Source: Craterostigma plantagineum (taxonomy: Eukaryota > Streptophyta > Magnoliopsida > Lamiales > Linderniaceae). From it: a stretch of DNA of 64,000 nt. The stretch spans positions 13,224,001 through 13,288,000 of the forward strand of contig JAPQWV010000018.1 in the NCBI GenBank assembly GCA_027422505.1, read 5' to 3'. Below the pieces are notes generated by a model, which saw only the letters and a list, made by a program, of their open reading frames with translations, was not told the origin of the DNA and did not search any database. A program made the position numbers and the translations under genes. Of this stretch, positions 9,301 through 61,970 are shown in pieces. Numbering within the stretch: position 1 is the first letter of the stretch; each line of letters starts with the position of its first letter.

Positions 9301-10360
9301 GATTCGTTCTGTTTTGAATCAAAAATTGTTAGAATTGGATTGAAAATCTTTTTCTGATTACTGTTCATCGAAGAACAGTTTGGCGCGAAAAATTATTTTC
9401 GATCCAATAGCTTAATTCTGTGCTTAATTGACTTGAATTTGATGTTTCTGTGGTCGCTTAAGTGCTAAATGTTGATTGCCATCAGATTGTAGCTGTTTGA
9501 ACTTCGTTTTAAGGATTAAATTGATTCTGTGATTTACTGTTTGCGAAGAACATGAAGAACACGTTCTGATTTTGGTCAATTTCGACATATTTTGCTTCAT
9601 AATGTGTTTAATTGCTTGTTCGTGCGTAGTTAGTAAATGATTGGGAGCAATTACCTGAAATTTCACTGTCTAATTCGTTGTTTTTGCTTGAATCTGTGTT
9701 AATCGTATTCTGTGATTTTTCTCGATCGTTCTAATTTTTCTTGCTAGGTTTACGATCAGATTAATTTCTCGATCGAAAAACTTGGCGCGAGAATTTTTCT
9801 CGGTCAGAATACGAAGTCAGCGCTAGAATCGTCAACACTAGAAACGATTTTAGTTAGAAATATTTCTCGAGCATTTAAGCGAAAATCTTTTTTGAGAGAG
9901 ACCAATTTTTACTTTTCACGCGTAAAAACTCTCTCTCGAGAAACATTTTCGGTAAGACCTTTAACGTTTGACCAGGCGAAAATCCTTTACACGCGAGAAA
10001 CTTTTCCAGTCAATAGATTTATTTTGACTTGTCGAGAAACTTACTAACGTACTGTTTCTTTACGATCGAAATAAATTCACGATCTCGAAATTTTTTCGCG
10101 ACCGAACGATTTTGGGCAATTTATTTCACTCTAAAAATATTGCTGACAGACTTTCTCGCACGAGAACAGTACACATTATATTCTATTTCGACGAAATTAT
10201 TTTCGATCAAACTTTAAAGATTGAATCGAAAATAATTCTCGAACTATTTTTCGAATCAAACGCTACTAACGAACTTTGTCACTTGTGAAGCACATTACAT
10301 CATCTTCAAACGTTCAAAACACTTAACGAAGATCCTTCAACAACTCAACTACAACACAAA
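9301..10360 (+). other. E1 leader with TCTCGA / CGATCGA motif clusters
   Basis: About 1 kb between primer site and gag. From 9720 to 10260 variants of TTTCTCGATCG, CGAGAAA and CGATCGAAA occur repeatedly on both strands. The same motif fills the pol-ORF3 spacer of this element. No convincing upstream gene. Confidence 0.7.
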
Positions 10361-13294
10361 ATGGATGCATACTCGCTCGGAAATGACAACCGTTCGCCGA
10401 TTTTGTAACGAGGCGAATATACCGTCTGGAGAAGCCGCTTCCTCAATTTCATCGCTTTAAAGATCAAGCCGAGAATTTGCTGAAATCACTAGAAGAGGGA
10501 CCCGCATAGTTTTGGATGAATGTCCCCGGTGATGAATCAGTAACCCCTCAAATTCCCGCATCTAGGCGACTGAAGGAGCCTCGGGAATACTCAATCGAGG
10601 AGAGGGCTCGAGCTAAGGCTGATCTAGTAGCCACGAATACCCTCATGCAGGGCATCCCCAATAACATATATAGACAGATTGATAGCCTTTCATCGGCTAA
10701 AGGAATGTGGGATGAACTGCATAGGATGATGCAGAGGACGGAAGTTGGCATAAAGGCCAAAAAGGCGAACATTCTCACTGCTTACGACTCCTTTAAAGCA
10801 AAGCCGGAGGATATGAGATGAGATACCTCACTCTTCTCAACGAGATGAGGAAGCTAGAAATCATAAAGACCAATGTGGAGACAAACATCCGATTTCTCTC
10901 TTCTCTGCTCGTGGAATGGAAGAAAATATCCACTCAATTTCGACAGAATAAAGATCTAGAGGAGTTGGATATCCATGCCGTGTTTGACAATCTCGCACAA
11001 CATGAGGATGATATAAGCGAGATTCAAAAGGTGCAGAAGGGCAAACAAATCGAAGACACTGTTGCCTTAGTCTCGGAGAAGAGGAGCTCAAAATCAAGAA
11101 AAGAAAAGATCGTTAGGCCTCCTCCTCCTTCAGAGTAGGAAGAAGAGTCGGACTCCGACGTTGAGCCAGACATGAAGGCTCTAGGAAAGCAGTTGGCTCT
11201 AATAGGAAAAATGATGAGCAAGAAATACTTCAAAAAGAAGTCTTCAACCTCAGCCAACAGACTTCGGACTACAAGATCTAAAAACAAAGAACTTGCACCA
11301 GAGAGCTCCGAAGTCAAGAACCCAAAAGAGGCTAACAAATGCTTCAACTGTGGCAAGCCAGGTCACTTTGCCAGAGAGTGCACTCTTCCGAAGAAGAGAT
11401 ATGCCAACTACTACTCCAGGAAGCTCCAACTGACTAAACAGAAGGAAGCTGGAGTAGCTCTCATGGCCGAACAAGACCAATGGCTCGAGGACACGTCGAG
11501 TTCTGAAGAAGACAATTTAGCCCTCATGGCCCGTCTCGACCATGAATGGGACGCTGAAACTACCAATCATACGGACGACGAAAACGAATCCACCTCTTCA
11601 CGGGAGGTAGACCTACATTCCACATTATTGACCATGTTAGATTCATATCAAAAACAATATGCTAACATGAAATGTGAGTAGAAAAGTATTAAGGAAGTAG
11701 AGGATAAACTTTCTAGGTCTCAGGAAAGGATAAATAGTCTCGAATCAGAACTTAGGAGCTCTAGTGCTAAAATAGAACTTACTAAGAGCCTATATTCTAG
11801 AGAGTCTAGTCAACCTCAATTAGGACAGCCGAAAAGATTAAAGAATTAGAAGATAGGCTAGCAAATAACTACAATTGCTTGGTTAGTAACTCAACGAGAA
11901 AGCCACCTTAAATTGTAGGATAACCGGAGCTACCACTAAGATCACTAACTTAGAAGCTCAATTAGAAATATCAAATGCTAAGGTTAGTGAGCTTAGTAAA
12001 GAACTAGACGCCTGCCAAGCTGCCAAACTGACAGTAGAAAATAATTATGCTCTCCTAGGTGAGGAACGCAAGAAACTATATGCTAAAATTAAGAAATTAG
12101 ATGATATCGTTACGCGTAGGGGACAATCCGAACAGACGATATTTTTAAACAAACCAAAGGATATAGAGTTCTACAATCCTATAGAGGGCATATGTTTCAC
12201 TAACCCACACGAGTTTTACGGAAAAAGGAAATATATGATATTAAGCACATGAGTTTAGGAGTAACCTCTCTTAGAGAATTTACTGAATCGACACACCAAA
12301 ATAATTTTGATTCATCTATGAGAAAAGCCTCACATGGGCCTGAGATCCCCTTTGACTGCAGTGCGCTAAATGAAAGAGACAGAAATATGAAACCGTCATC
12401 AACACCTGTCTCTGACCTATTTCAACTTCCTGACCCTCAAACAGTCCTCGAGGAAGCCAAAGTCGCTCATTATAAAAATTCTCTCTACAAACCTCCTATA
12501 ATCAAACAGATAGAGGAATCTCAAGCAAAACTAGATAAAGAAAGAGAGAATTTCGAAGTTGAAAAGAAAACGTTCTTAAAAGAGATGGAAAATCTCAAAG
12601 CTTTCTCATCCTCCCAAACTACCTCTCATGCTATTATGAAAAGCGTGAAAATCGAAAAATCACGTTCGAAAGATCAAAAGAGTATTAATAATTCTGTTAA
12701 GTGTGCTAAGACTAAAGTTACTTTACCTACGTCTACAGGGAGCGTAGGGCAAGCACTAATATCGAAGGCGAGAGTGTCTAGTCTTAAGAAGGAGCAAGTA
12801 GATTTGAGTATGCTTAAGAATGTTGTTCCCTCTGTATGAATAAATGACAATCGTAGAAATAAAAGAGCCATTTCTTCGCTTAGAGTAATTGCTTCTACGT
12901 GTACTCTTCAGCCCATCACCTTTAGAAGCACCAACAACGAAATAGGCTCTACCTCACAAATTAAATATAATCATTCTGAAACAAATGCCACTAGGAAGAC
13001 TCGTAGGAAACAAGATCCAGCCATAAAGAAAGCTTATGGCGCCGTACATGTCTGTACTCACCTAAGGTATCCCGTAAAATTGAGTCCCCCAAGCACCTTA
13101 GGAGATTATCAAAAGAAAAGACCTTTTCCTCAGTCAAGCCTACCAAAGCATTTGTGCGTGCTGAAATTAACCTTCCCTGCAAGGTTCAACCCAAATGGAT
13201 TCCTAAATCTCCGCCTAGGACGACAAAAGCCAAAAAGGCCAAGTCACCTAAAGAGGCATCACCCAAAACCTCTCCTACGAAAGTGATATGGGTT
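10361..13294 (+). pseudogene. E1 gag, long with C-terminal coiled-coil region
   Basis: Gag starts at ATG 10361 (MDAYSLGNDN) and meets TAA at 10406. It continues as RGEYTVWRSRFLNF, then shifts frame to 10516-10821 and again to 10818-11681 (in-frame TAG at 11136). The capsid-like UBN2-type part contains KGMWDELHRMM. A CCHC knuckle, CFNCGKPGHFAREC, lies at about 11340-11381. From 11680 to 13290 the encoded sequence is Lys/Glu/Ser-rich with heptad-like stretches (LEEAKVAHYKN, EKKTFLKEMENL), as in the long SIRE-type Gag. Multiple stops make it non-functional. E2 is inserted at the end of this region, just before the protease. Confidence 0.88.
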
Positions 13295-13299
13295 ATTAG

Positions 13300-16616: not shown

Positions 16617-16621
16617 GTGTT

Positions 16622-16919: not shown

Positions 16920-16985
16920 ATCTCCCCCTTTGTGACAATTGTTGGGAGTATTGGATCTTGGGCGTTGTGATGGTGGATTAGCGTG

Positions 16986-19900
16986 TTAGTGTTCGCGAAG
17001 TCCTAGCTTGAACTCGAAGGCGCGGAGATTCCTTTGAAGGACCATTCGATCAGCTATAGCGTCGATGAACTTCGCGAACTTGGATCGGTAGTGTGGATCT
17101 TCTTCCGAAAGGATACGGCAAATCCTCATGAGTTTGTCTTGGATGATGGTGAGCGTCCCAATTGAGAATTTTGCCACTTCGGAGCAGCGCAGCAGCCTCA
17201 TCTTTCCCTTGTAGTTCGAGTAGGCGACCGCCGGATCATCTCCGTCGATACATCGCCTTCTCGGTAGTCGTCCGCGTTCTTGAAAGATGGGCGAGTTAGG
17301 TTCACCTTCTTCAGGTTGTGCTCCACCGCCATCTGCAGATCATGGGTGGCGAAGAATCTGACCTGTCGGAGCATATGGCGCTTGAGAGCTATGTAGCCCA
17401 TGGTGACCGGTTCAGCCCGTACGAGATGTCCCGAACTTCTGAGGACGAGTCTGAACTGCTTCATGGATTCCAGCATGTTGTACAGATCACCTAAGCGCAG
17501 AAATTTGAAGTCCGCCTCGCTTACTTCACAGCAGCTCTCGTCCTGCCTCATCACCGTGAACACTGGATAGTGAACACGTCCTTTCGACTCTTGGCGAAGG
17601 TCAGTGACTTTGCAGATGGGGGCCCGATTCATTTCCAGAGCGATGTTTTCTTCATCGGACAGCGTCCTCTTTGTGCACTTGTGGCAAAGAAGGCTCCATC
17701 GATAGAGCTTCTTCTTTTCCTCGCTCCAATTTTGAATGTTCATCAGCTCATATTCGTTGAAGGTCGTGATGATTTGCTCCTTGCGCCGCCAGATCCTCTT
17801 CCTGATCTCTTCTTGAAATGGCGCGGTGATCTTCTTATTTTCCCACGGTGCTTCTGGTATATCCGTCGTGGGCACATCCGGTTGAGTAGCAGGAGCCTCA
17901 GCTTGCTGCACTTGAAATTGTAGGATGTTCTCGAGCTCGGCAGGTTCAGCGTCGTACTCCTATCCGTTCTCGTTCTCTGCAGTGTTGATTAGAGTGAGCG
18001 AGGCTTCCTTTAGCAGACGTCGAGCATTTTCCACCAACTTCCTGGCTGCTACTGCATCGGCGGGTGTGTACAGCCATTCATCGTTAAAGATGTAGGCCTC
18101 GATCTCGTTCTGTGCGCAGTAGACGTCCTCGGAAGCCATGTTGGAATCGGTATTGAGAGGGGTATGGCTGTGTGGTGGCAAGGGTGTTGCGTCGGAGGAG
18201 TTTGAGGATTGTGGGGATGGTTGTGGTGGAGATTCTAGTGGTTCGGATGAGGTGATGGTTTTGGCTAGGATGATTTGGGCGTCGGTTGGTGTAGATGTGG
18301 TGGTGTCCTCTAACGTCGATGTGGTAGTTAGAGGTTCCGAGACGGTGGGTGGAGAAGGTGTGGTGGTGGTCTCTATCGCCGATGTGACAATTAGAGTTAC
18401 GGAGACGGTAGTAGGTGGTAATGTGGGTGATTTGGCTAATGACTCGGGGTTAATGGGATGGGATTTTTGGCTAGTGGGGTGTGAGGTTTCTCTTGCGGGC
18501 GTTGTTTCAGGTGCAGAGGAGGAAGGCGGCATCAATTGCACGAGTCCTTGTGATTGTGAGCCTTGTTGCCTCTCCCCCTCGCGGCGATCTTGATCATCGT
18601 CTTGATCGTCACGCCTGATCCCGCTAGACTCGCCTTGAGTACGGCAAGTCATTGGTTGAGTGATAATGGCCTTCATTTGCTGTTCCTCTTCGTCAAGTTC
18701 CGTCATTGATTCGAATCGGGCTCTGAGGATGTAGAAGAGCTCCTTTGTGGAAATTGTGGAGAGAACATCTTCAGCGTCCACATTTTGAGTTGGTGGTGGC
18801 ATCTCGAGGGCCACACCTTTGCCTTTGTCGATGGTGGACGCATCGAGACGCGCGTAGACTTTATCGAGGATAGACGCCTCAAGAGTCTTTGCAAACTCTT
18901 GAAGACGAGTCTCTAACGTGGTCTCAGTCACGAACTGGGGTAAGTTTAACAAGTTGGAATCCCGAAGAAATCCAACTGTCACCGAATCGGAGAAGATAGC
19001 CGATCGGCCGCCCGTTTGCACAGGACGGGAAAAGACGGGGTCACTCAGACTTCCCATTGGCATCATCGATGAGACAGACTCAAGTGAATGATGGCCTAGG
19101 CTCACGGTTGTTGTGATGTTGGCCGTGCTAGGTCTTCCGCTCTCAGTCACAGAGACATCACCGAGCATTCTGACAGAATCACGAAGACTCTGTAGTGAGG
19201 TAAAAGGTGTATGTGTCCTAGAAACGTAAGAAATTATGGGGAGTGAGGGCACTATACTCGATGTGCATGAAGAGGATACAGTCTGAGGCGAGGGACTGCT
19301 TGTTTCAACATCGACTATCTCCAAGCGGGATGCCGATGGCATACGTGGCTCCTCGTGGAATGTAATATCTTCCTGTAGAGAGGAAGATAAGTGGATTGGT
19401 GGGGTCGTTTGCATGGTTGAGCCAGATGCAACGTCTTCTACTCGGGAGGTGAACACATCACCTCCTGTACCTATTGGTTCGGCCCGACTTATATGTGGCT
19501 GAGGAGGTCGATCGTGTTTTTGTTTCGATCGACGCTCCGTGGGGCGGCTTACGTCATCCTCACGCGACCGTTTGTTCGGAACGCGGGTGGAAGAGGATAC
19601 GGCGCGACTCGATGACTTTTTGGAGGTGGTGGTGGGGTTTTGGCTAGTCCCGGGGTTAGGAGCAGTGGGGTTGATCTGCGCCGTAGGGACAGTGGATAGT
19701 GGGTGAGGGCTTTCGTGGAAAGAGGCTGTGGAGGCACGGTACTCTCGGACGTGCAGGTTGGTCGGGTTGGGATAGGCGAGAATGTCGTCTGGGATTATCA
19801 TTGCGTGTCGATCTTTCGCCGGAGTGTTTTTCTTGGCGAACTTCTCGACAGTGGGGATTAGGAAGTGTTCCGTTGCCGGGCGGATGCGAATGTTGGTGGA

Positions 19901-20692
19901 GTGCAAGCGGAAATGTTTGATGAGAGCTGGGAGCCACCGCATGTAAGGGACGAAGCGGTTTGTGACTCCCTTGGCGACTTCCCGGTCGCGACGTTGGATC
20001 ATGGAGACGAGATTCATCCATATGATGTCGGCGTAGTTGTACTTGCGGTTGTGGGCGATGCCGGTTAGGATGGTGAGGATTTGAAAGTTTTCGCGGTCCT
20101 GACCAGCATGCTTCCGTGACATGCATTTGTTCACCAGCAGGTACAGCGTTCGCCAGGGTTGGGGTAGATTACGGGTGGTGACTTCACTGAGGACAAGTGG
20201 GCCCTTCTTCTTCTTGTTTTCTGGTTGATAGCCCAGTCTGTCTATGTCCTCGATGAGTTGTTCATGGGTTGGTAGCGGGTCGTATGGTGAGTAGACAGGG
20301 AGTTGAAGCACTTCTTGGACTATCTTGCGAGTGAGGACCACCGTTTCTTGATCAATTTTGGCGGATAAGTTTTTAGTAAGGTGGAGTGGTCCAGCTATCT
20401 GCAACGTATGCCAGAATTGTTGAAGATACACTTGTGCTTCTGGCTCGCCATGAGTGAGGGCGTGGCGAAGTGGGTGCCCTTTGAGGATTTCTATAATAAT
20501 GGGGGCATCGCACCGAAAGCTGTCCAAGTCCACCATGTAATTGTTGGGAATCAAGGCCGCCCATTGACTTGTTGGGAAGATCTGCTCGATTGGTGGGACA
20601 TAGGTAAGCGTGTTGAGCTCGATGCGAGCGATGTCCCTTTGGATTGCAGCCGCCTCAAGTGCTTCAAGTGTACCTTGATCTTTGTTGGTCAT
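16986..20692 (-). CDS. E3 ORF3: conserved extra protein of SIRE-like copia elements, function unknown
   Basis: The first 910 codons (20692-17960) are open. In the same frame a single TAG (17960-17962) is followed by about 250 more codons, and one frameshift near 17250 leads into the last 70 (17201-16986). N-terminal block (about residues 30-260): YLQQFW, SPYDPLPT, LPQPWRTLY, VNKCMSRKHAG, GIAHNRKYNY..IIW. The middle (about 300-880) is rich in Pro, Ser and Thr. The C-terminal block contains MLRQVRFFATHDLQMAVE and KKVNLTRPSF. The same blocks occur in E1 (42174-45773) and E4 (58080-59904). I see no signal peptide, membrane helix, zinc motif or known catalytic site, so it is not Env-like. Similar uncharacterised proteins are, from memory, common next to copia pol genes in plant genomes. 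Role not established. Confidence 0.85.
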
Positions 20693-28122: not shown

Positions 28123-29642
28123 GGTTGGTGCAGTCGAATCGTCCGTGGTTTTGATCTTGTATAGATAAGAGAGTTAGTAACGAACGAGATGAGAAATATG
28201 AGTTTAACGTGTAGAGTTTTGAGAAAAAAAATTGCTTAAAGAATTTCTTAGAACTAAGTGAGCGTGTGTGATGGTCGATAATGTATGAAGGGAAAATATA
28301 TCTTGAAATTAGGAGAAGTTCTAGAAATTTAAAAACGAGATTTGAGGCGAGAAAAAAATTTATGTCAAAAATGGTCTAGGGTGATAGGACTAAAGTGTAA
28401 GGATCAAATCTTAAATAAGTTTGAGAAAAATTTAACCCGAGAAAATTTTAACTCGAGAAAAAACAAAAAAACCTTAACACGTCAGGAAAAGAAAATTCGC
28501 AGTTTGAAGGGACATGATTATATGAAGAATTATCCGAGAAATTATGTGTTGAGAAATTTCGGTGTTTGTGAGTTTTAAAGAGATATTTTCGGAAGAAAAA
28601 TTCTCAGTTGAAAAGTTTCGGATTTTAAAATTTCGCATGTGAGAAAGATTCTTGATTTTGAATTTTTAACACCTACGCAAGAAATTTCGCATCGGGAGTT
28701 GAAGTGTGATTTTAGGAAGTTTTTCTCGGATTTGAAAGAATCGTGGTTTTGAAAAACTTTCTCGGATGGAATAAACTTTCTCGGCTGAAAATTTCTTGGA
28801 TTAAAAAGTCGTGGTTTTAAAAAAAAATTCGCGAATTTGCAAACTTTCTCGGTTTTGAAAAATTTCTCGGATAAAAATTTCAAAAAAGTTCTCGGCAGAA
28901 AAATTTCGCGGCTCAGAGAAATTCGCGGAATAAGCTTTCTCAGGTACAAAGTTTCTCGGATATATGAAGAGTAAGCAAATTTCGCAGATGAAGGTTTTCG
29001 AGTGAGCAAATTTCGCGTTTTTTAGAAAAATTCTCGGAATCAAATTTCGCAGATGTAAGGTTTCTCGAATTTTGAAAATAGGCAGTTGGGAAAAAATGCA
29101 GTGAAAGTGAAATTTTTCGCGGTTCTAGGTAAATTCTCGGAATCAAATTTCGCAGATGTGAAAATTTCGCGGACTTGAACGATTAAGCAAAAATTTTCGC
29201 GGTCAAGAACGAGCTTTCACTGTTCCATTGCTTTCATGCGTTTTGCCAGAAAATCGTCCAGTTCTTGCTCAAATCTCAACCAAAATCGCTCAAACTTGAT
29301 CCTAAACTTCAGAAATTCTTCCCTAAACACATGATCGACCGATTTGTGGGCTAAAAACAACAAAAAATAGATCAAATCGACCAAAAACAGAGAATGACCG
29401 AGATGTCCTTTTCTGAAGAGTTTTTGCTTCGAACTTGCTCAAAACTCGTTAAAACTGATCCAAAAGTGTTCTAAAAACATTTTAGGCATAGATCTGGGGG
29501 AAGGTTTTAAACACAAAAACGAGGCATTAAAACCCCAAAAACGAGTTCAAAATGCCTGAAAGTGATTTTTGCCCAAAACACCTTTGATCTTTCTCGGAAT
29601 CGAACGAAACTGGATTCAAATCAATGCAGATCGATCCACGTT
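28123..29642 (-). other. E3 leader with TTTCGC and TTTCTCGG motif array
   Basis: Between primer site and gag, about 28600-29210 on the plus strand carries over a dozen TTTCGC(A/G) and several TTTCTCGG words in one direction, matching the motif of the 20860-21840 spacer. No supported gene. Confidence 0.8.
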
Positions 29643-29655
29643 TGCTCTGATACCA
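29643..29655 (-). promoter_or_regulatory. primer binding site of E3 (tRNA-iMet)
   Basis: The minus strand reads TGGTATCAGAGCA, two bases from the LTR. Confidence 0.95.
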
Positions 29656-29657
29656 CT

Positions 29658-29955
29658 TGTTGGTCCCGATTGCACCAAACAAGGAATCAAAGAGGCTTTA
29701 ATGGAATGAAAAGGGAGAGGATCTCACCTTCAAGTGTGTGTATTGTGTGAAAAATAGGATAAGCCTTTTGATCTTTGATTACCTTTCGAATTGTGTTGGT
29801 AAAACCTTATATACCACATTAACCCTAGGTATATTAAGGCCCAAACACTAAAAATTTAAATAATTACATTCTAGTCCAAAGCCCAAGCTACAAAGATAAT
29901 TACAATATTAAACCCAAGACATAAACTATTGACACAATCACTAAATATCCTAACA
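29658..29955 (-). mobile_element. 5' LTR of E3
   Basis: 298 bp, identical by eye to 16622-16919. Followed by the target duplication GTGTT at 29956-29960, after which E2 coding sequence resumes. Confidence 0.97.
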
Positions 29956-32357: not shown

Positions 32358-33364
32358 TATCTACGTCGCAGAGGAAAAAGGTTTCAGTTATTTTTACGTA
32401 AATGTTTTATTCACAAAATAAAACTCCCACTACATGCCCCGCAGTAGTAGGTCCAAGATCCATATTTTCACTAAGAATAAGCCAGCGGCGGCATGAAACT
32501 TTATCTTAGTTATTTTAGGTAAGCAACACCTTGCTAATCAAATCATATTTGACTCTTGGTTTTGTTAACATCGTATATTAACAAAACTTCTCCCCAAGAC
32601 CCAAAACGGTTTTGGTCTCTTGATAAGTTAACTCATTCTATTTGATACGCAAAGTTCGGACATACCCCACGATTCTTAAAGATTGAACACGGTGCCTACT
32701 GAGTAGGTCCCACCAATATTCGTTCTAAATTCGACGCGTAGAATAGCAAGGGAGTAGACCTAATTTTTAAAGGGACTATATTCGTTTAACAAATATTTAA
32801 ATCATTTCCTGATTTAAAATAAAAAAATTAAAGATGCAAATTATCTAATAATCTTGCATACTATATTTGCGATAATAAAATCTCAATGTTCGGTCAATCA
32901 TATTAACCAAGCGAAATCACATATATGCAACTACTCATTTGATGGATATCCAATACGATGCAAACGATAAGCATGTGATATTCAATCATCATCAAGACAG
33001 ATAAATTCCTATAGGAAACATTAGAGACACTCACAGTATATACACGTTGGCCATGTGATTGCAATTATATACATGTACATATATACTTACACATTTCTGA
33101 ATCGAAAACATCACATAGTATCGGCTATCATCATGATATTAATTAAAATACTTAAATAAAACATGCTTGTTACAAAGCAATCATGACAGAACACCAACGA
33201 AAGCCAAATAATTATCCCATCACATGAATACTTATCAAGCAACCTTTCTGTAGCTAACCTAAGGCACATGGAAATATGCACGTAAATATGCCGTACGCAT
33301 AGTATCATATCAAAACGTACAAGAAAACAAGCTTCTCACATAATCAGTTAAGATATCGCATGAC
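32358..33364 (-). other. E2 leader, no gene
   Basis: About 1 kb between primer site and gag. No motif array like those of E1, E3 and E4, and no convincing reading frame. Confidence 0.6.
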
Positions 33365-33377
33365 GGCTCTGATACCA
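33365..33377 (-). promoter_or_regulatory. primer binding site of E2 (tRNA-iMet)
   Basis: The minus strand reads TGGTATCAGAGCC, one base from the LTR end at 33379. Confidence 0.93.
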
Positions 33378-38474: not shown

Positions 38475-41400
38475 TATGTGCTTTACCTGATCTTCTGTGC
38501 TACTAAATGTTCTATGCTACGTGTTTTCTTTGCTTACATGTTTGATCTTGCGTGAATATAATAAATAAAAAATAATAATTATAAAATAATTCAAAAACAT
38601 TATAAATATATATAATATTAGGGGGATGACGAAATCCTTTAGGATGCTTTGATCTAAAGTCACTTAGAATTTTACCCCGACATGCGATCGATTTAATTGC
38701 TTAATTTTGTCAGCCTAAGTCGCATCCTTGTGTCTAAAGGTCATTAGGTTGCTCCACTAGACATAAAGCCACTATACATATGTGAGGATTCAAGCATTTT
38801 TTTCTTTCTTTCTTTGGATCTATTTCTCGAGTGAGTCACACATCAATTACTTGTCTTAACTAATGATACTTGGCTTCATACGCACATTGCCTTAGATCGT
38901 TAGGAAAATGATAAGGGCGCTTAGGTTATTCCTCACTCGGCCTTTCAAAATTTTTCCCTCACATTAGCTCTTAGTCATCCACTTTGAGCCTTCTCCGATG
39001 TCCTTTTCTTCATTTGAGTCCCATTCCTACCCTTCAACCGTATTCCATACTCTTCAGATGATTGTTCAAACGAGAAAAGGAGGGGGAGAAAACAAAAGAA
39101 AAGGGGGATGATGACAAAAGAAGGTATTACTCAACGCGCAAAACTCAGACCAAAGGAACCTGCCTTCTGATTATCTCTTAGAAGGTGGCATGGATCCTGC
39201 TGTGAACTTCTCCAACGATAATCTCGTACGCTCGTCAGAACGGCTGGAAAGAGGAGCACCACGAAGTGAACTTCTCCAACGATAATCCGGTCTTATATCG
39301 GGAAACGAGAAGAGGAGAGCAGCCTTGAGTACGAATTCCATAACCGTGAACTTTTCCAAAAAGATAATCTCTGAAACCTCTATAGGGATTAAGAGAAGAG
39401 GAGCACGGTATCGGTCCGAGAACCAACAAGAAGAACTTCGCCTACGATAATCTCCTATAGCCTCGTGGAGAAGCGGAGCTTCAGCTTGAGCATAGCATAA
39501 AAAGGGATAGTTCTTAAAAGAAAAAGAAGGAGAAAAGATTGAAAAGAAGAAGGACGCCGAAAAAAAAGAGACGGACGTAGAAATGGAAGATGACGAAGAG
39601 ATAAGCTCACTTTCCTCTAAATTCCTTCCCTTCTAAGTCATAGCCAAACTAAAACCCATACAACCCTTTGATTCCAATCGTCTCTCACTTAGGTGAAATG
39701 ATTAAAAATGCCTCGATCATTTGTAAATTGACTTAAAATTGCTTGTGTTGACTTGAGTGATATAAATATAAAAATCCCAAGTTTGAAATAATTGAGTGCA
39801 ATAGCGAACCTAGTGAGAGTTGTCGGAATGGACCAGTCTATGAACTTGACTTTAGTTTGACGACATGACTTGACGGCATTTTCTTCTTTCAAATGTCTCG
39901 TAAAACTTTAGGTGTGATGCTTGATCGAAGCAAGATAATCTGACCCCATAATAATAATATACATAAAAACAAAATAATTTTTTTTACATATATATTTATA
40001 TAAAACTAATATTTTTTTAATTTCTGAAAAAAAAAACAAAATCGTGAAAGGAAAAATTTCGCACATTCTGACATGAAATATTATGTTTCATATGCGTTGA
40101 ATTGAACAAATGCGAATTTATTTTGTTAAAATGCAATTTTAGATTGCATTGGTACTATTGTTTAAAATGCGATAAATTTTTCATTGCTCTTACCCTCACG
40201 CAATATCTTCAATACATGTTTTCGGGATCATGTATATGTGCTTACTAGGTATATTGCTATTTTATACTCGTTACTTGAATTGATTTCATATGTTTGCATG
40301 TTAAGTCAATTCTTGCGCATTATTTGAGGGGGTGTAAATATAAAAATCGTGCATTAGCTCCAAATAGTTTTGACGGTTTTCTCTAAGTATTTCAGATTTC
40401 TTCAAACAAAATAAAGGAGTGAGAAGTCGACACTACAAGACAAGGAGCTATTGTCACAGACCAAATATTTCAAAGGAAAACATGCCAAAAATAATTGTTG
40501 ATTAACTCTATTATTTCTAACGTTTTTTTTCTAAGTGGTACAGATTTGTTTATTCTGCCAGGGGAGCTAGACGTTACTACACAGAAAATCCAGGAGTTAA
40601 TTGCATTTATTTTAATTCTGAGGGGGAGCATTACAATGTGATTTTATTTGAAATAGGGATCAATCTGAAAATTTTTAGAAGTACTTACAATCGAGAAATT
40701 GGATATAAGAATTAGTTCGCAATCATATGTTTCTCGATCGTAAACAGCGTTGTGAATGATTTTGATTGGCCGCGATAATTTGCGATCGAGAAATTGAATT
40801 GAAGAGCAATTTTCGAATCAATATTTCTCGAGCGCAAATAGTAATGGGCCTGATCCATTTAATCGCAAAACGTCCAATCGCGAACCCAACATTGACTTAC
40901 AGGGAGTTAATAAAAATTCACTTTTTGTCAGTCGAAAAATTTATCTCACGCAAACCTAAATTGCAAAAATTTCTCTCTCGAAAAACTTTCACAAACAGTT
41001 TAAATCTCTCACAATCTTTCGATTTTCAACACCAAATTGTCTGTGTAAGGTAGAAATGAGATTCATTTGACATTTGCCTGCGATTTAACTCCATTAGCAT
41101 CTGCATTTTGTAGTTTTTCGCGTGATTAGGATTAGATTATCTACTGTTCTTCAAACTGAGAAAACCGTATACTATTTTATAGTGATTTAGGCATGTTTAC
41201 GAGTTTTATCTGGGTTAATGCCTGCACTTAAGCTAGTTTCGATGTTTTTTATGGATTAGTTTAAACTCTCAAAAAATCTGCATCTTAGACCACTAAGTTG
41301 AGCTTTGAAAGAAACTGAGTATTTGAATGTTTGAAGCCATCGAAGAACTTTGTCGATCGCAAAGAGTCTTAATTGAATTCCGATTCAATTGAGATACTGT

Positions 41401-42173
41401 TTGTATCGAATTAGTTTTCGATCGCTAAATTCTGACTTAGTCGCTAAGAAAGAAGATTTTGACTGACAAATTTTTCGATCGTAAAATTCGCCGCTTAGGA
41501 TTTAATTGATCGGAAAAATTTCTCAACGATTGACTTTGTTTTTCTTTCGTTGACTAATTTCTCGATAGAAAAATATCGCAGCGAAAATTTTACTTAGGAT
41601 CGGAAATCACGTATCGCTCTACAAATTTCAAATTGAAAAATTTTATTCAATCGAGGAAATTTTTCGACAGTAAATTTACCTGAGAAATAATTTCTCGAAC
41701 GTAAATTTATACGGAATTTTTCTCGATCGTAAAATTGGTCGGCTACAGTCCATGATTACGACTTCAACACTTAGTTTTTTTCTAAGTCTTTTACACTGTA
41801 GCGAACATTAAACGAATAAAAATTTTTCGATCGCGAAATTAAACGGAGTTATTTCAATTGAAATCAATGCATAGGAAATCAATTTGAAAATCAAATTTTT
41901 CGAGCGTAAAATATCTCGGCATGAACAGTGACATTTTCCACGATCAAACACTTAGAAAATCTCGAAGTTTCTTCCACGCGTTATTTGTTTCATTCGAAAT
42001 TACGAACATGCCATTACATTTTTCAAAATCAATTATACTATATGCATACTACATTATTTCAATTCAAAATTCATCAAACATGTCATGACTTGTTACAATA
42101 CTATAGTTTGATGAAATTAAATCAATTTTCGACTAAAATTAAATTTTGAACTAATGAACTTTTTATATCTTTT
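38475..42173 (+). other. E1 spacer between pol and ORF3: purine tracts, tandem repeat, TTTCTCGATCG array
   Basis: PPT-like purine runs occur at 38618-38630, 39075-39115, 40325-40335 and 40618-40632 (TCTGAGGGGGAG). Imperfect tandem repeats occupy 39200-39480. From about 40680 to 41900 the words TTTCTCGATCGTAAA, CGATCGAGAAA, TTTCTCGAACGTAAA and TTTTTCGATCGCGAAA recur about fifteen times. No reading frame here looks like a gene. Confidence 0.75.
39200..39480. repeat. imperfect tandem repeat, about four units of 70-90 bp
   Basis: GAACTTCTCCAACGATAATC and close variants recur at about 39202, 39268, 39349 and 39434. Each is followed by GAGAAGAGGAGCA(C/G)-like sequence. Confidence 0.75.
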
Positions 42174-45100
42174 ATGCTTCAGATGGATCGCTACCCACGA
42201 TACAATCACATCTATGACCATAATTTGTACCTGAAGGTCCAGGATACAAATTCCCAGCTCGATCTGAGCACCTTTCGGTGTCCAGACGAGATCATTGTCT
42301 CTATCCTGCAAGGCCACCCCATCTGGCATGCATTGACGGTCACCCATCGGTGCCAATAGTCTATCTCCAGCAATTCTGGGGATGTATACAAAGAGCAGTG
42401 GATAATAGAGCATTCTCTTTCTCAACCATACTGGGGACGCGGCACATACATATGGACAAGAACCGGTTCGGAATGATTCTGGACTTGCCATACAACGCAA
42501 ACTACGACCCGCTCCCATCAGACACAGAAATGGTGCACGATTTCATGCAGATGGGATATCAACCGCAGCTCACCAAGCTAGCTCAGGTCCAGAGCAGCGG
42601 TATCCCTCATCCTTGGAAGACACTGTTCGGGATTGTGAACAAGTGTCTATCGCCCAAGCATGCTGGCTTCGACAAGAGCAATGGCAACATACTGAGGATC
42701 TTCCACGGAATCGCATTCTCCAGGAACTATGATTTCACGCAGCTGATCTGGAATGATCTTGCAGACCAGATCAGGCAAAAGGAGAATAAGAGATCCAAGA
42801 ACGTGCCCTACGCTCGGTGGTTTGATGTGATCATCAGGGAACTCATAGAGTTGCACGAGTCCATCCCTCGTCTACCTCCTGGAGGAAATTATCAACCACC
42901 AAGGCTCAAATTCTTCAATAATCCACGGCTCACGGACTTGGACCAACCGTCGATGCTGATTTCTTTTGAGCTGCTACGTCTCGCCGACCCCCAGGGAGAC
43001 GTGTATCTAACTTACTGCCAGGAGAATCACCTTACCGAGTAGCTGATTCGAGGGCCCCCGACAGATTTTGGAGTTAGCCCTCCCCAACCGCAACACCAAC
43101 CAAGCCCTGAGGACACGATGATAGAGGTTGTCGCTCAGGAGCTTCAACAGGAGTCTCCTTTGGTCGAAGAGCAAATGCCCGACATAGATGATACGCTAAT
43201 AGACGTCGTGGCGACTGCGATGGTGCTCGAGGCTCCTGAACACGAGGTGGAGGTGCCCGTACGTGTAGGCGTGCTCCAAGAGCCTATTGAGGAGGTTCTA
43301 CTTCAGGAGGCACAGCCCGAGGCGGAAACGGGGCACAACTCACCACCTGCGACGACGGAACACGCCGGTGAGGAATAAGCTCGAGAACCGACACCTCACA
43401 CGGCTTTCTCGTCAGACACTGAGTCTGATGAGGAGATCCAACTTATAAGACGGACTCCACGTCGAGTGAGCTTTCAGATTGAGTCCCTCTTCACCATCGT
43501 CTCCACCACGTCAGACACGCCGCTTGTCATACCTTCTAGGGCTGAGGGCCCTTCATCGCTCAATCTAGAGCTGCAGCTCACTATCAAACGGACGGTAGGG
43601 GCCGAGGATCAGACTATCACTACCGGCCTCGACGTCAAAATGTCTGATGTACAGATATCTGAGCCTGTCACAACATCCATAGACACGAATCTTCTAGATT
43701 CAAGTCGAGGATTGGATGGAAGTCTCGAACAGTCACAACCTCAAGTGACTGCGAGCCAACCTACGGAGCCGGTGCCTGCTCAAGGGTTGACAACAGGCGA
43801 CATCAGTCGACCTGGAACATCTACGACGGAGGCTTCCACCCCTTTTGTGACCTACGAGCAATTCCAGACCACTCTCTCTGTCGCTGTACAATCCATGGAA
43901 TACAAGATCATGGAGAGAGTACTCCACGCTATCGAGACATCCCGAAGAGATATTGGGAAAGCACCTGTCTTTGAAGTCCCTTCGTCACAAACCAACCTCA
44001 CACCTCCACAACCCACACCTTCCAACCCTTTAGCCACTTCATCCATCCTCATCAACCCATACACCATACCCATAACCGAGCTCCACGACATCCTACTTGC
44101 CAACCTGATCGGTCTCTCCATCCGGTCGCCTCAAGAAGAGTCTCTTTATTGGCGATTGGTGGATCATCCTGAGCCATCTACTGAAACCTGCCGAGGCCAA
44201 AGCTCCCACTCAAGACGCAGACATGACAATCCTGACGATCAGGACCCTCATGAGGAGGAGAAGAGGCCACGTACATCTACGAGTGGTCAAGAACAAGGCC
44301 AAGGCTCGGGCTCTACGCAGACAATAACTGGAGCCGGAGAAACCTCACAACCCGCTACACAAACCACCACCACCACGCACCGCACACAACCTCTAAGCCC
44401 ATTCTACCAACCCACCATCACAACGCCTCCGTCGACCCCATCCACCCCACTGATTCTGACAAGCCCCTTGCTTCCGGAAGAAGAAGCAAGTGCAGCGATG
44501 CTCGTAGCCCTAGCAGCTACTCAAGCTACTCCCTCGGTCGCTCCAGACCAACCGGGCCCCTCAGGAAATGGCGTCAATCCACACGAGGTTCTTGACAAAT
44601 ACATCTTCAAAGGACAATGGATGACCCATTCCATGCCCGAGGAGCATCAAAGACAACGACTTCAGGACGTTCGGAATTTCCTACAACAAGCCTCCATAGA
44701 CCTCGTGATCATAGAAGACGACGAGCTTCAGAAGGTGAAAACTACCAACAAGATATCCCAAGGCTACCAGAGTTGATCGCGCAACGAGCGGCTTCCCCCA
44801 CAAGACTAACGCCAGGGACCGTTCGGATCGACACGCCGTGGGAGAACATCCGAATAGAAATCCCCTTCCTTGAAGAAGTTCGTGAAACATATGGAGGTCG
44901 CCGGAGAGAGTTAAGAAGCCGAACGAGTTTGAGATGAGAGGGATCTCTCACTGAGATCAGCAGAAGAGGATGACCTACCTCTGGATGCTGACCAAACTTG
45001 TACCTGATGTAAGGCTGGGGATGACTAAAGAACAAGTCAAGAGCCACTATAAGAGTCTCTCCCCAATATGCCTACTCAGCGCATACTGTGCAAAAGGAGG

Positions 45101-45773
45101 ACTTCCAACACCTCACTACACCATCGAGCGAGTGGATAGAACTCGAGAAGATCTAAGCGAGAGCGACCTACCGTACATCCCTGTTGATGAGGCATACCAT
45201 CTCTATCAGCTGTACGTGGAAAAGTACAAAGGTCCTCAAGGCTTCATCAAGAAAGAAGGACTCGAGGGACTCTACCGATTCATGATGCGCCAAGTCAAGT
45301 ACTTCGCCGCACACGACCTTCAGATGGCGCTGGAGAGCAACCAGAAGAAGGTTAACATGACCGCTCCGCTCAACAAAGGACCTGAGATCGAAGGCCTTCC
45401 CAACAATCACGTGCACATCAGCTCAGTCTTACGCATCACTTACCACAATCCAATAGCCAAGAAGAATAGGTTGATGCTTAAGACTGAGATTCATAAGTTT
45501 TGCGATGGGACGCTCAAGGTCGTCAGGAAAAACATCGAGCAGAGGTTGGAAGAAATCAATCGAGATGCGATGGTGAGGATCCACAGGTTCTTGAGAGAAG
45601 AGTCGCTCCTAATGAAACTACTTGAAGGTATCGAGGAGCGACTGGAGCTGAGGAACACGCTCTGGAACTTTGAGCTGCGCTGGCTTGAGCAGATCATACT
45701 ATGCCCGACGAGGACAAACAGCGCGGAGACGCAATCAAGCACAAAGGGGGAGATTGTAGAGTATACATTTTAA
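42174..45773 (+). pseudogene. E1 ORF3, decayed copy of the conserved extra protein
   Basis: Begins at ATG 42174 (LQMDRYPRYNHIY) and shifts near 42345. From there to 44776 one frame runs with only two internal stops (43040-43042 and 43376-43378). It then shifts to the segment with DTPWENIRIEIPF and, from 44970, an open 267-codon C-terminal part. Shared with E3: VYLQQFW, YDPLPSD, HPWKTLF, VNKCLSPKHAGFD, FHGIAFSRNYD and, at the end, FMMRQVKYFAAHDLQMALE, KKVNMT. The middle is Pro/Ser/Thr-rich. The stop lies 19 bases inside the 3' LTR, so the PPT is coding. No membrane segment is visible. Function unknown. Confidence 0.85.
45743..45754 (+). promoter_or_regulatory. polypurine tract of E1
   Basis: AAAGGGGGAGAT immediately before the 3' LTR TGTAGAG. 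Confidence 0.93.
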
Positions 45774-56582: not shown

Positions 56583-56732
56583 ATATGTCATACGATCATT
56601 TCAGATATTCAAATAACTTATAGGCTCACTGAACTAGTGAGGCCAGGCCAATAAATTGGCTAGGACATCGGATGAGCCCATGCACGATCCTTAGTTAGTT
56701 AGAACTAATTAAGGGTCGTGACATTGACTCTC

Positions 56733-57488
56733 CAAAACATCACCGTGATCATTCCGTTATCACTGCGTTTGTTTAGCGTGGGTGATGAGTCAACCGTGAT
56801 GGAGGATCACCGAGGTGATCGAAAGGGGTTGATATTCCAGCTTCGGATCACCCCCAAAAAGCAGGGTGATCCTCCATCACCGTGATGAGGTGATATTTTC
56901 AATATTTATTTGGACAAAATTATCCCTTATATTTTAACATTCATTCCTTATATGCCCTTATTCTTATTTTAAAATACATAAGCAACATATTTAAATCTTA
57001 AAAAATTTATATTTAATGCTTAAAATAAAAGAATTATTGAAGGATTATAGAAAATACTTTTAATTAATAATTGATCAATCTATTAAAGCTTAGAAACATA
57101 CAATAATTATATTGAAGAATTGTATACAATACTTATAATTAATAATTCGTTAAAAACCTATGTTTAAAGCCTAAAAAATATAATAATTCTATGATTTATA
57201 TAACTTCTTATAATTAATGCTTAAGAGAAATACTTGATTTTCAAATATTAATAACTATCATGTAAAATATTACATCAAATGAACATATTAAAACAGTACT
57301 ACATGTATAAATTAGGTTAAATATAACATTTACACAACATCACCCCAAACATCACTGCGATAAAACAAACACAATATTCCAATATCAATTGATATGCAAA
57401 ATGAAACATCACCCCAAAACAAACTCGGTGATGACATATCACATTGATCCACATGGTGATGTGAGTATCACCGGAAACAAACAGCCCC
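56733..57488. mobile_element. PIF/Harbinger-like remnant related to 4948-5998
   Basis: The right end GTATCACCGGAAACAAACAGCCCC matches, inverted, the GGGG.TGTTTGTTT.GGTGATCC end of the copy at 4948. Both contain many GGTGAT/ATCACC words. The left end is missing, so no duplication can be read. It accounts for the small reading frames here. Confidence 0.55.
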
Positions 57489-58005: not shown

Positions 58006-58079
58006 ATCTCCCCCTTAGCATCGTTTTTGCCTTGGCGTTCTTAGTGTCTTCTTCTTTTTGGGTTTTCCACAGCATAGAT

Positions 58080-59904
58080 TTATTTCCTGAGACCAAGTCT
58101 GAACTCGTATGATCGTAGCGTTCTTCGTAAAGATATTCGGTCTGAGATGATGTTGATCAGCTTTTCGTATTTCACCTGGACTTCAGCTTCTTCAAGCCTT
58201 AGTTGCTCCGGAATCCTTCTGAGTTTGCTTCGAATGATTAGTAGAGTTCCATCGCCAAATTTGGCAATCTCTGATGTTTTCATTAGCCTCTTTTCTCCCT
58301 TGTAGTTGATGTAGACCACTGATGGATCGTCGTCTTCATTGATTATGTGGCCTTCACCAAGACATTGGTCAGGGATTTTGAAGGATGGCTTCGTGAGATT
58401 TACCCTCTTCATATTGCTTTTTACCGCCATTAAGAGGTCGTGAGTTGTAATGAATTTAACTTGGCGCATCATGAATCGCATAAGAGCGACGTATCCCACC
58501 TTCAGGTCTGGATTCTGAAGTGTTCCAAGGAATCTGAAGCTTCCTAGTATCTGATCAACATCTTCATCTCTGATGTAGGAAAGATCGCCTTCAAATTCTT
58601 CGATTGTTCCATCTTCTCGCTGCACTTTGTAAATAGGAAATTCATAGAAATCAAGATGAGCTCGTCGTACTCCCATGATTGTGCTTATTCTGGCTCTTTC
58701 CCTCGTGAGGATGTGAAACAATCATCTGTTGAGAGATGATTGAGTGGGCAGGTTGGGTACTTTGCGCGATTGGACCAGATATCGCGACTTCTACTCGGGG
58801 GAAGACAAAGTCATCCCCTGCACCTTTGGGATCGGTCCGGATTATTTGTTGACTAGAAGACGGAGAAGGACAGTCGTGCATACGATTAGTACGCCGTTCT
58901 GCTTTGCTGCTACCTGCATCCCCTTTTAATTTTCTCTTGCGTTTTTGTGCGGGGGATGCGGCTTGCCCTAGACCTAGACTTGGCCGTTGGGGTTGGCTTG
59001 TCCCTAGGTTAGGTTCAACTGGGATTTGTTGAACCGTGGGAATCTCATCTAGGTTGTTTTCGCGAAGGTATTTGACAAGCAGAGCATCGTTTGGATCGAG
59101 AAGTTGAAGAAGGTGTTCAGGTAATAGCATTGCCTCCTGATCAAATTTGGACTTCGTGGACAGAATCCTCCCGAGCTTTGGGATTGGGTAACCTTCGACT
59201 TGGGGACGACGCTCGATTTCTGGGTGAAGATCCACAAAATATTGGACAATTACTGGAAGCCATCGGAGGTAAGGAAGGATCTTTGTTGAGCCAAACTTCC
59301 GTCTACGCATTTGGTCCAGAAGGTCGGACCAAATCAATTGGACGACATCGTAATTTTTGTTGAATGCAATGCCGTGGAAGATCAGCATTATTTGTCTGTT
59401 GCAACGGTCGGACCCTGTGTGCTTAGGTGATTATCATTTGTTGACGAGTAGAAACAAGGTTCGCCAGTGTCTGGGTATGTCCTTGGCCGAGAGGTCAGGT
59501 AGATGAATGGAATTTTAATCGTTTAGTTTGTATACCATGAAAAGAAAGTCTCTGATAAGCTCATCGTCAGTGGGATGTGGGTCGTAATGTGGTGAGTAAG
59601 GGAGTTGTAGTTGCGAGCGAATGATGTTTGGAGTTAAAACCACGATCGTGTTGTCAATTTGAGCTGAGAGACGTGTAGGTTTGGGGTTATCTGTTGGATT
59701 CTGAAGAGTGGCCCGAAACTGTTGTACATAGACTTCGGGGACACACTCGGTGATGGTGATGGCAGCTTTTAAGGGATAATTAGCGAGAATTTTTAAAATA
59801 ATAGGGTATGGGCAAGGTGTGTTATCGAAGTCGAGTTGGACGTTGTTGGGTAATTTTTGTGCCCAGTCTGTAGTGGGGAAAATATCGTCTATTTGTCGCA
59901 CCAT
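58080..59904 (-). pseudogene. E4 ORF3, decayed and internally shortened
   Basis: 59904 to about 58651 is one frame with three stops clustered at 59509 and about 59453-59458 (HWRTLFLLVNK followed by TGA TAA, then SPKHTGSD). A shift then leads to 58721-58080. N-terminal block: IFPTTDWAQKLPNN, VYVQQFRATLQ, SPHYDPHPTD, IFHGIAFNKNYDVVQLIW. C-terminal block: RFMMRQVKFITTHDLLMAV, KRVNLTKPSFK, EIAKFGDGTLLIIR, then RSYEFRLGLRK. Compared with E3, the Pro/Ser/Thr-rich middle is reduced from several hundred residues to about 100 and rejoins around 58715. The end aligns with the frameshifted end of E3 ORF3. Function unknown. Confidence 0.85.
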
Positions 59905-61204
59905 TGTGGGAGATCTGTAAAGAGAGAAAAAATGATTAGTAGTCCGATCATGTTAACAAAGGATGCGATAACATGCAAATATTGTAAAGACTTCGGCAGT
60001 TTAATGTATGGACATTAGACTTAAGACTTAGAAAAAAAATGTTAAAATCGGGCAATGTCTAGATCAAAGAACGATGGACAAAATGGGGCGAAACACGATC
60101 AATTGATTGAGATTTTAATTGGTCGAAAGTTACGTTCGGGCGAAAGTCACAATCACAAAATTGAAGCTTAAATCTGGCGGCGCTTGACCTGTCAAACAAA
60201 AGAATTCGGGCGATTCAGATTGGACGATTTCAATTTATTTAGGTTGAGTCACAATCGGCCGAAAGTCACAAATATAGAATCGAAGCTGAAATCGGGCGAT
60301 GTTTGACTAGTCAAACAGACGAATTCGTCCGATTGAATTTATAATTGAAAAGTCGGGCAAACAAAGCTATGAGCCCAAATCAATCGGTAAAGGCCGGAAA
60401 ATCCAAGTCGTTCTGAGGCAAATCAGCAAAAGAGTGAAAAACCCTAATCTATCAAGAAAGCTTCTGGGAGAATTTTGAAAGAGCGATAAACCCTAAACTT
60501 CGATTCCTACAAAAATTGAGTAAACGCGGTAAATCGTGCTGAATAATTAGTGTTTTTCCTTACCAGAGTGAGTTTCGAATCGCAAACAAGTACAAAATAC
60601 GTGGATTTTGAGTGCAAAGTAGACGATGTTCGTTCGAGAGTGAAGTTGATTTGAGATTAGTTGTTGAGAAATTTGGAAAACTGAATGACTTTCGGCCGAA
60701 ACTGTGTTTATATCAGGCATAATTATTGAGTTTCGACCGAAACAAGTTTCGGGCGATTTGAAATTTCGCCGAGGTACGTGTTAATTCATGTATTAACATG
60801 ATTTTAGTATTGGGCGATGATTTAAATTTCGGGCGATTCAGTTTCGGGCGAGTCTTAGTTTCAACGAGGCCTATTTTAAGAAAAAATAAATAAAATGTTA
60901 GTTTCAATCAATCAGATAAAATCAATTTCGGGAGATCATTGTATATCAAAAGGATTTTGGCCCTATTAAAGAAAATCTGAAGAGGTTCTCTCTAATCTAA
61001 CGAATGAGAAATTTTCAGCTAATCCATAGCACGAAGATAGACCCCAAAATCAAATCAAAATCAACGAGTTATGTGACACAATCCGGTAATCGATGAAATA
61101 AACATCGCTTTCATTCGCGGCGCAGAACCCTAAAGTCAAAGATCTATTGGGATCATTTATGATACTTGTCGAGACAATAATGATTTCGTAGTTCGAATTA
61201 TGCC

Positions 61205-61212
61205 TATAAATA
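61205..61212 (+). promoter_or_regulatory. TATA box for the antisense small ORF
   Basis: TATAAATA, 65 bases before the ATG at 61277, leaving room for a start near 61235 and a leader of about 40 bases. Directed opposite to E4. Confidence 0.4.
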
Positions 61213-61276
61213 ATCATGATTCGAACCACATGGTGACATCAATAAGCACTTAAACACAGAATTCTATCTTGCACGG

Positions 61277-61447
61277 ATGAACTGGATGCAGCAGCAAGAA
61301 CGTGAATATGAGAATGAAGAGGATGCAGAGCGAAAGCGCAATTTTGAGCACAATTTGGATATGCCGGCGTTTGAGCTGATGCTTCTTATGAGCTTGTTCG
61401 TCGCTTTAATGGCTATTCTATTTTGGTTTTTATCTGGGGCATACTAG
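61277..61447 (+). CDS. 56-codon antisense small ORF with C-terminal membrane helix
   Basis: ATG 61277 to TAG 61447, on the strand opposite to E4, in its pol-ORF3 spacer. The first 28 residues are highly charged (QQQEREYENEEDAERKRN). Residues about 32-53 are hydrophobic (ELMLLMSLFVALMAILFWFL), ending in SGAY, so a tail-anchored protein is predicted. A TATA box lies 65 bases upstream and AATAAA at about 61594. I found no equivalent in the matching spacers of E1 or E3. It is short, and chance cannot be excluded. Antisense extra ORFs are known from some plant LTR elements. Confidence 0.4.
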   Translation: MNWMQQQEREYENEEDAERKRNFEHNLDMPAFELMLLMSLFVALMAILFWFLSGAY

Positions 61448-61970
61448 TTTTTAAAGTGGTTTAACATGTTTTGATGAGTTGTACGAGTGTTTTTTCCACA
61501 TTTGGAAGGATGTATGAATCGTTTAAATATTAGTTTGTGAGAAACAGCTATTCCCCCTCAATATTTGAAGTTTTGGGAATTTGAACTTCAAAAAATAAAA
61601 ACCTAATGCGAAGGAATACTTTGATGAATGAAACTGTCTCGATTATGAAGTTTAGTTGTTTCAAAAGTTACAAAGGCAGTTTCGGACAATTCAAAGAGTG
61701 GCAAAGTAGTTTCGGGCGATGGTCTTCTTTGCCGAGAAAACATATGCGAATTTGAAAAGAATTTGAAAATTTTAGTTCAAAAGGTTGATAAGAAAAATTT
61801 GAAGAAGAATTACAAAACCTCCCCTAGATTTGTGCTAATTTTTCAAGACTCCCCCTAGACATGATAGTAAAGTTTTCTGACTTACATAAGAAAACATAGC
61901 AAGAAATGTAGCGACACATATAATTAAGTGACCTATTTATACAAAATAAGGTTCATGTAGGGACAATCGA

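Follow-up and report, generated by a model that had tools for sequence, protein, structure and literature searches.

The stretch of Craterostigma plantagineum DNA analysed here (64,000 nucleotides, C18:13224001-13288000 of the 1.71-Gb genome G000; hereafter the window) holds nested copia elements: E2 (minus strand) is inserted in E1 (plus strand), E3 (minus strand) is inserted in E2, and E4 (minus strand) extends past the right window edge. E1, E3 and E4 each have a sense open reading frame (ORF), ORF3, between pol and the 3' long terminal repeat (LTR). We investigated the arrays of short CG-containing words that lie in the spacer before ORF3 of all three elements and, in E1 and E3, also in the leader before gag. 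An initial annotation had proposed them as candidate target sites of ORF3, which by analogy with the VANC proteins of Arabidopsis VANDAL elements could be a sequence-specific anti-silencing or packaging factor.

All three elements have at the 3' LTR the polypurine tract AGGGGGAG followed by AT/TG (at 45745, 16922 and 58008), a Sirevirus hallmark (PMC2829016; here and below, cited sources other than PMC5735166 are represented by excerpts), and a copia gag-pol with an env-like ORF before the 3' LTR, assigned from a Pfam copia gag in E3, pol ORFs recognised by eye and ORF3 homology. Judged from polypurine tract and gene layout, E1, E3 and E4 are copia Sireviruses. The initial annotation missed this identity, for which motif boxes have been published, and did not recognise the E3 spacer array as intronic. 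In window positions, the features concerned are:

8940..9286, plus strand: E1 5' LTR, about 347 bp (3' LTR at 45755-46100; ATTAC flanks both sides)
9720..10260, plus strand: E1 leader array, motif ATTTcTCGATCGnAA, with matches to the spacer-trained matrix
40650..42182, plus strand: E1 pre-ORF3 array, its 3' end a splice-acceptor-like TTTATGCTTCAG immediately before the ATG at 42183
42183..45740, plus strand: E1 ORF3, broken by stops and frameshifts, with N- and C-terminal regions homologous to E3 and E4 ORF3
45745..45752, plus strand: E1 Sirevirus-type polypurine tract, AGGGGGAG then AT/TG
32358..33375, minus strand: E2 leader, array-free control; E2 is of another copia lineage and lacks ORF3
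29657..29955, minus strand: E3 5' LTR, 299 bp, 100% identical to the 3' LTR at 16621-16919
28123..29656, minus strand: E3 leader with array, GCGAAATTT and CCGAGAAA
20695..22136, minus strand: E3 array-bearing intron, GTATGA...CACAG, 1,442 bp, GT-AG, ending 2 nt before the ORF3 ATG
16985..20692, minus strand: E3 ORF3, first frame of 910 aa, interrupted after it
16922..16929, minus strand: E3 polypurine tract, AGGGGGAG then AT/TG
59905..60930, minus strand: E4 pre-ORF3 array, TCGCCCGAAA and TTTCGGCCGAAA, with acceptor-like CTCTCTTTACAG and a candidate donor GTAAGG near 60564
58081..59904, minus strand: E4 ORF3, interrupted, homologous to E1 and E3 ORF3
58008..58015, minus strand: E4 polypurine tract, AGGGGGAG then AT/TG

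The array words exceed what composition predicts. Compared with 200 dinucleotide-preserving shuffles per region, TTTCGC/GCGAAA occurs 35 times in the E3 spacer (2.7 expected) and 10 times in the E3 leader (2.3 expected), with a shuffle maximum of 7 in each. In E1, TTTCTCG reaches 8 in the leader (0.7 expected, maximum 4) and 9 in the spacer (1.2 expected, maximum 6), and CGATCG 16 strand-counts in the spacer (1.4 expected, maximum 8). The E4 spacer contains 4 copies of TTTCGGGCGA (0.01 expected, maximum 1) and 9 of GGGCGA (0.4 expected, maximum 4). An unbiased k-mer scan placed array words at or near the top in the array regions of all three elements, exceeding the maximum of the null for 6-mers and 7-mers (for 8-mers not in the E1 leader); some coding regions also exceed the null, with different words (CCACCA in E3 ORF3, GCCGTGAC in E4 pol). 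The arrays that the initial annotation had described in E1, E3 and E4 are therefore real, and chance or composition is rejected as their source. Not every form of the words is enriched: exact full TTTCTCGATCG has just 5 copies in E1 (leader 2, spacer 3), CGATCG in the E1 leader (6) merely equals the shuffle maximum, and for the bare core TTTCG the excess is clear in the E3 spacer only. TTTCTCG is common to E1 and E3 (12 in the E3 leader, 0.9 expected), so that the words are distinct as wholes and share one half. By strand, E3 motifs divide 26:9 and E1 matrix matches 11:6 in the spacer and 3:6 in the leader; adjacent E3 motifs are commonly ~19 bp apart.

The array regions are rich in CpG, with observed/expected ratios (leader and spacer) of 1.85 and 1.26 in E1, 1.53 and 1.35 in E3, and 1.32 in the E4 spacer, compared with 0.24-0.73 in the LTRs and 0.72-0.95 in coding regions of these elements. 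The E2 LTR and leader are likewise above 1 (1.13 each), and no word there exceeds the null maximum in the k-mer scan. The absence of both ORF3 and array from E2, as first described, thus stands for these regions, but E2 was rejected as a matched control because it belongs to a different copia lineage, which leaves the comparison weak. The E4 leader lies outside the window and was not found in the adjoining DNA at window positions 66,001-80,000 (L055-L056; 64,001-66,000 was not fetched). Within that DNA, the segment equivalent to 78501-80000 has a CpG ratio of 0.07-0.14, far under its surroundings.

Leader and spacer of one element, whose arrays are some 8-9 kb apart, carry a common word. Matrices trained on one region were applied to the others, with 100 shuffles as the null. 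The E1 spacer matrix (ATTTcTCGATCGnAA, 17 sites) found 9 matches in the E1 leader (9287-10360; 0.52 expected, maximum 4) and few elsewhere (E3 leader 2, E3 spacer 1, E4 spacer 0, LTR 1; E4 ORF3 2, with 0.14 expected). The E3 spacer matrix (AcnTGCGAAAtTTT) found 21 in the E3 leader (1.04 expected), 5 in the E1 proximal spacer (0.99 expected, maximum 3) and 2 in the E4 spacer (1.06 expected); the E3 leader matrix, in turn, found 26 in the E3 spacer (0.94 expected). The E4 matrix has 19 matches in its own training region (0.58 expected) and 0-3 in others. The words are therefore largely private, with slight overlap between E1 and E3. Other E3-family copies repeat the pattern. Of 23 pieces fetched, words were counted in 12 that contain leader sequence; L046 (389 bp of leader) is left out, and the others have no leader match. 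All ten leaders of 786 bp or more have 4-12 GCGAAA and 7-15 CCGAGAA, and the two shorter leaders, of 596 and 343 bp, have 2 and 0 GCGAAA. The proposal that the word differs between families and its placement does not is thus largely borne out for leader and pre-ORF3 region, apart from the TTTCTCG of E1 and E3.

ORF3 relatives elsewhere in the genome extend this comparison. Of 17,232 candidates for E4 ORF3, 150 places were scored, 66-76% identical besides E4 itself (two short matches reach 85%). Eight of 14 upstream regions from this query have 12-19 GCCCGA, every copy in sense orientation (TCGCCCGA is the E4-clade word). One of the 14, L085, has a different word, the perfect palindrome AGTTTCGATCGAAACT; four further regions, picked for likeness to L085 from the same identity band and fetched as upstream region only, without their ORF3, are 92-98% identical and all have the array. 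The E1 search scored 149 of 21,896 candidates, and both upstream regions fetched (84% and 75% ORF3 identity) have 12 strand-counts of CGATCG (1.4 and 1.6 expected), TTTCTCG and CpG ratios above 2. As predicted from the coupling, each clade's own word was present in all four leaders fetched for the E4 and L085 clades: in raw counts without shuffle control, 6 and 5 GCCCGA and zero GTTTCGATC in two E4-clade leaders, and 8 and 8 GTTTCGATC/GATCGAAAC in two L085-type leaders. These leader arrays lie downstream of the primer-binding site (PBS), with CpG ratios of about 1.5-2.1 in array bins. Four ORF3 clades have four words, with exceptions.

The E3 pre-ORF3 array is intronic, with 33 of the 35 spacer GCGAAA/TTTCGC inside the intron and a CpG ratio of 1.50 there compared with 1.00 upstream of the donor. 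Among the best 30 E3-family ORF3 loci fetched (121 scored of 20,059 candidates), L005, L023 and L028 miss exactly -1444 to -3 relative to the ORF3 ATG. The spliced junction occurs genome-wide at 20 places with at most 2 mismatches (1 without mismatch) and nowhere in a reversed control. From their sequence, the intronless places are best read as reverse-transcribed spliced RNAs. In the ORF3 tree, L005 groups with other relatives (support 0.99), away from L023 and L028 (0.754 together), which suggests at least two intron losses. Acceptor-like sequences directly precede ORF3 in the L085 clade, in E4, and in E1 and two further copies of its family, and we infer introns before ORF3 in these as well. 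A search of the 606 bp preceding the E3 donor gave no TATA-like word; an ATATAA is located 150 bp before the candidate E4 donor.

Within the E3 family the motif is under constraint beyond the neutral expectation. We compared 50 loci, the best 30 plus 20 chosen among the remaining 91. At least 14 GCGAAA precede ORF3 in 45 of them; the exceptions are the three intronless loci, L022 (larger deletion) and L027 (array mostly lost). The mean is 21.6 in the 36 loci classed as intron-bearing, where permutations of the same letters have a median of 0.03 and the commonest, CGAGAA (4.4), is itself an array component. A first conservation measure was dropped because it was inflated by ascertainment, simulation showing that much of its ratio is expected, and was replaced by a column test on an alignment of 43 of the 50 loci (leaving out the five array-poor or intronless ones, L025 and the near-duplicate L004). 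In the 11 loci less than 85% alike, GCGAAA/TTTCGC columns score 0.923 and others 0.796, a level that none of 1273 circular shifts reached; for CpG columns the scores are 0.892 in motifs and 0.774 outside. An earlier column test with 5 such loci gave 0.950 vs 0.894, matched or exceeded by 2 of 1285 shifts. In twelve simulations of neutral evolution, each realigned, the difference ranged from -0.014 to 0.021 compared with 0.117 observed, and sequences kept 4-17 motifs compared with 14-26; the simulations assume equal site rates and are slightly less diverged than the data (mean identity 0.756-0.781; observed 0.727).

The same introns show a second word, CTACAGTG, repeated beside TTTCGC with conservation near that of the motif; CTACAG scores 0.91-0.93 in the column test and 0.89 by the earlier measure, and a single reverse copy of the second word (CACTGTAGCGAA) lies at about 41787-41800 in the E1 spacer. 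At L011/L025 (G000:C33:7578764-7583248), three E3-type ORF3 starts in the same orientation, ~1.75 kb apart, form a tandem duplication of the ORF3 region. In the window, E1 sits in a 23-bp minisatellite (ATTACGGTACCAAATTTGCATAT-like; repeat copies at 8642-8939 and 46105-46530), inverted pieces 73-77% similar, perhaps DNA transposon copies, flank the nest at 5009-5973 and 56731-57460, and short direct repeats lie at the right edge (63820-63994), within the region counted as E4 pol.

The ORF3 proteins of E1, E3 and E4 are related, with about 29-51% identity over pieces at both ends and a serine/threonine/proline-rich middle. Protein searches with ORF3 returned only 1 and 2 relatives, among them an Arctium protein in which a copia reverse transcriptase match is joined to an ORF3-type N-terminal region. 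A PDB search by sequence and searches of IMG/VR and GTDB contigs gave no lead, and a candidate relative, L001, was rejected for want of a clear relationship.

Enrichment, leader/intron word coupling, clade-specific words, constraint in the E3 family and splicing of the E3 intron, all observed, together make it very likely that the arrays are selected binding sites. With the same word in both arrays of an element and different words between clades, one trans-acting binder per clade is the simplest explanation. Tentatively, we favour lineage-specific sites of a single factor that would act at two places in each element, in the leader ahead of gag and again ahead of ORF3 (in E3, within the intron). 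The likeliest candidate is the ORF3 protein that the element itself encodes: it would bind DNA and hold two CpG-rich regions in an open or unmethylated state, allowing expression of the element and of ORF3, and with divergence of ORF3 a new word would come into both arrays. ORF3 is favoured because the array precedes its gene, because it diverges fast, and because env and such boxes are linked in published elements. Two observations fit hypomethylation without showing it here: the arrays are rich in CpG next to LTRs that are poor in it, and sunflower SIRE elements are reported to have a 'dramatic reduction' of CG methylation in the part enclosed by their LTRs (PMC12844716).

Several observations weigh against this proposal. 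Words co-segregate with the whole element, which is inherited together, so that ORF3 is not singled out from gag, pol or a host factor. In the ORF3 pieces searched, Pfam gave no match and no recognised DNA-binding domain; AlphaFold models of both ORF3 domains are poor (predicted local distance difference test scores, pLDDT, of 61.8 and 50.8), and the one model searched by fold had no PDB match. Among the 14 E4-query loci, L077 has 4 GCCCGA, not above the null, and the 1.5 kb taken upstream of each of L087-L090 is free of arrays. L085, L087, L088 and L089 form one ORF3 clade (support 0.963) with an array in L085 alone: L087 and L089 are 93-95% identical to L085 in ORF3 and share with it just the last 320-334 bp before ORF3, and L088, 99% identical in ORF3, has unrelated upstream DNA. 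Nor are the words strictly private, since the five L085-type regions also contain 10-13 GCGAAA/TTTCGC, and the L085-type leaders also carry 3 GCCCGA each. In E3 pairs at least 95% alike, a distance for which there is no simulation, the motif scores 0.909 and non-CG words 0.856; the lack of a clear excess in young pairs would be expected if dead copies drift and selection acts only on active lineages. The strand bias of E3, and of the all-sense GCCCGA in the E4 clade, would also fit a role in RNA. Separately, the upstream regions of L087 and L089 are candidates for array loss or insertion.

It is possible, instead, that the arrays are enhancers or promoter boxes for host transcription factors, which would drive gag from the side of the LTR and ORF3 through a promoter within the element, as the 2010 Sirevirus paper reads them. 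Their position 5' of both genes, their CpG-island character and the ATATAA before the candidate E4 donor suit this, as do the published boxes before env, for which an internal promoter was suggested (PMC2829016). Four words in one host genome would, however, call for several host factors, or for a single factor of very broad tolerance, and the 606 bp ahead of the E3 donor contain no TATA-like word. A role in RNA, in packaging or splicing control, is unlikely. Retroviral packaging signals can lie inside an intron, and the E3 array, spliced out of RNA that retains pol and ORF3, would mark unspliced genomic RNA, of which the leader array is also part; the preference of the E3 motifs and the E4-clade words for the sense strand agrees. 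Against it stand the mixed strands in E1, the perfect DNA palindromes of the L085 clade, the 20 places where spliced RNAs were apparently still reverse-transcribed, and a high CpG content that RNA would not need. A neutral minisatellite or base-composition effect, to which the ~19-bp spacing might point, is highly improbable given the enrichment over dinucleotide shuffles, motif columns beyond all 12 neutral simulations, flanks without tandem register beyond control and the identical word in leader and intron, and a neutral tandem repeat is rejected on the flank-register control and the simulations.

The arrays bear on a standing question, the role of Sirevirus env-like genes. One word recurring in two arrays of an element, and words that differ between ORF3 clades of the same genome, indicate a single binder that co-evolves with them. 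If this binder is ORF3, anti-silencing would reach beyond DNA transposons into an abundant class of plant retrotransposons, and new sequence-specific epigenome tools might follow; if it is another factor, the system still illustrates how these elements maintain control regions rich in CpG.

The basic array pattern was already known, since CG-rich palindromic 'RM boxes' before the Sirevirus env-like gene were published in 2010 (Bousios et al., PMC2829016). In the excerpts of that paper, nine of 13 elements with RM boxes have env and linker boxes, the four without env have none there, and six env-containing Sireviruses lack RM boxes. As there, the arrays here belong to env-bearing copia Sireviruses with AGGGGGAG-AT/TG and consist of many element-specific palindromic CG motifs before env, in CpG islands; by a symmetry score without control, the L085-clade word is a perfect palindrome, those of E1 and E4 are fair ones and that of E3 is a weak one. 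The CGG..CCG core is found in E4 only (TCGGCCGA), other clades having CGATCG or GCGAAA, and the published RM of Tnd-1 lacks it too. Unlike RM boxes, which lie in LTRs and before env, the arrays here leave the short LTRs (295-347 bp) nearly box-free (one CGATCG in each E1 LTR, zero GCGAAA/TTTCGC in the E3 LTR), and the second array lies in the leader between PBS and gag. New relative to the 2010 account are the leader/pre-ORF3 coupling, the clade comparison, the constraint and the intronic array (no search was aimed at Sirevirus env splicing). Like the env-like additional ORFs of plant LTR retrotransposons, ORF3 is a sense ORF between pol and the 3' LTR, and spliced env-like messages are reported for other families (PMC7264820, PMC11728184); the excerpts of those accounts do not mention motif arrays. 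In the open-licence PMC literature on retrotransposon anti-silencing, Sirevirus leaders and internal promoters, as far as excerpted, we found no proposal of ORF3 or env as array binder.

The VANC analogy of the initial annotation holds in part. VANDALs are Mutator-like DNA transposons, whereas ORF3 belongs to copia elements; VANC proteins have DUF1985/DUF287, which Pfam did not find in the ORF3 pieces or three relatives, a further point against ORF3 as binder; the VANC21 word YAGTATTAY has no CG (PMC5735166); and binding and demethylation, which for ORF3 are a proposal, are known for VANC from experiment (Hosaka et al. 2017, PMC5735166; Sasaki et al. 2023, PMC10398659). It is doubtful, as a full account, that ORF3 is an independent retrotransposon counterpart of VANC, an anti-silencing protein that would recognise its own clade's palindromic CG word and keep both arrays hypomethylated, with protein and word replaced together several times in one genome. 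The likeness lies in dense short family-specific words in non-coding DNA, in E3 partly intronic as VANDAL words also are, mostly in one orientation, and in an element-encoded extra protein with conserved and variable parts (PMC5735166).

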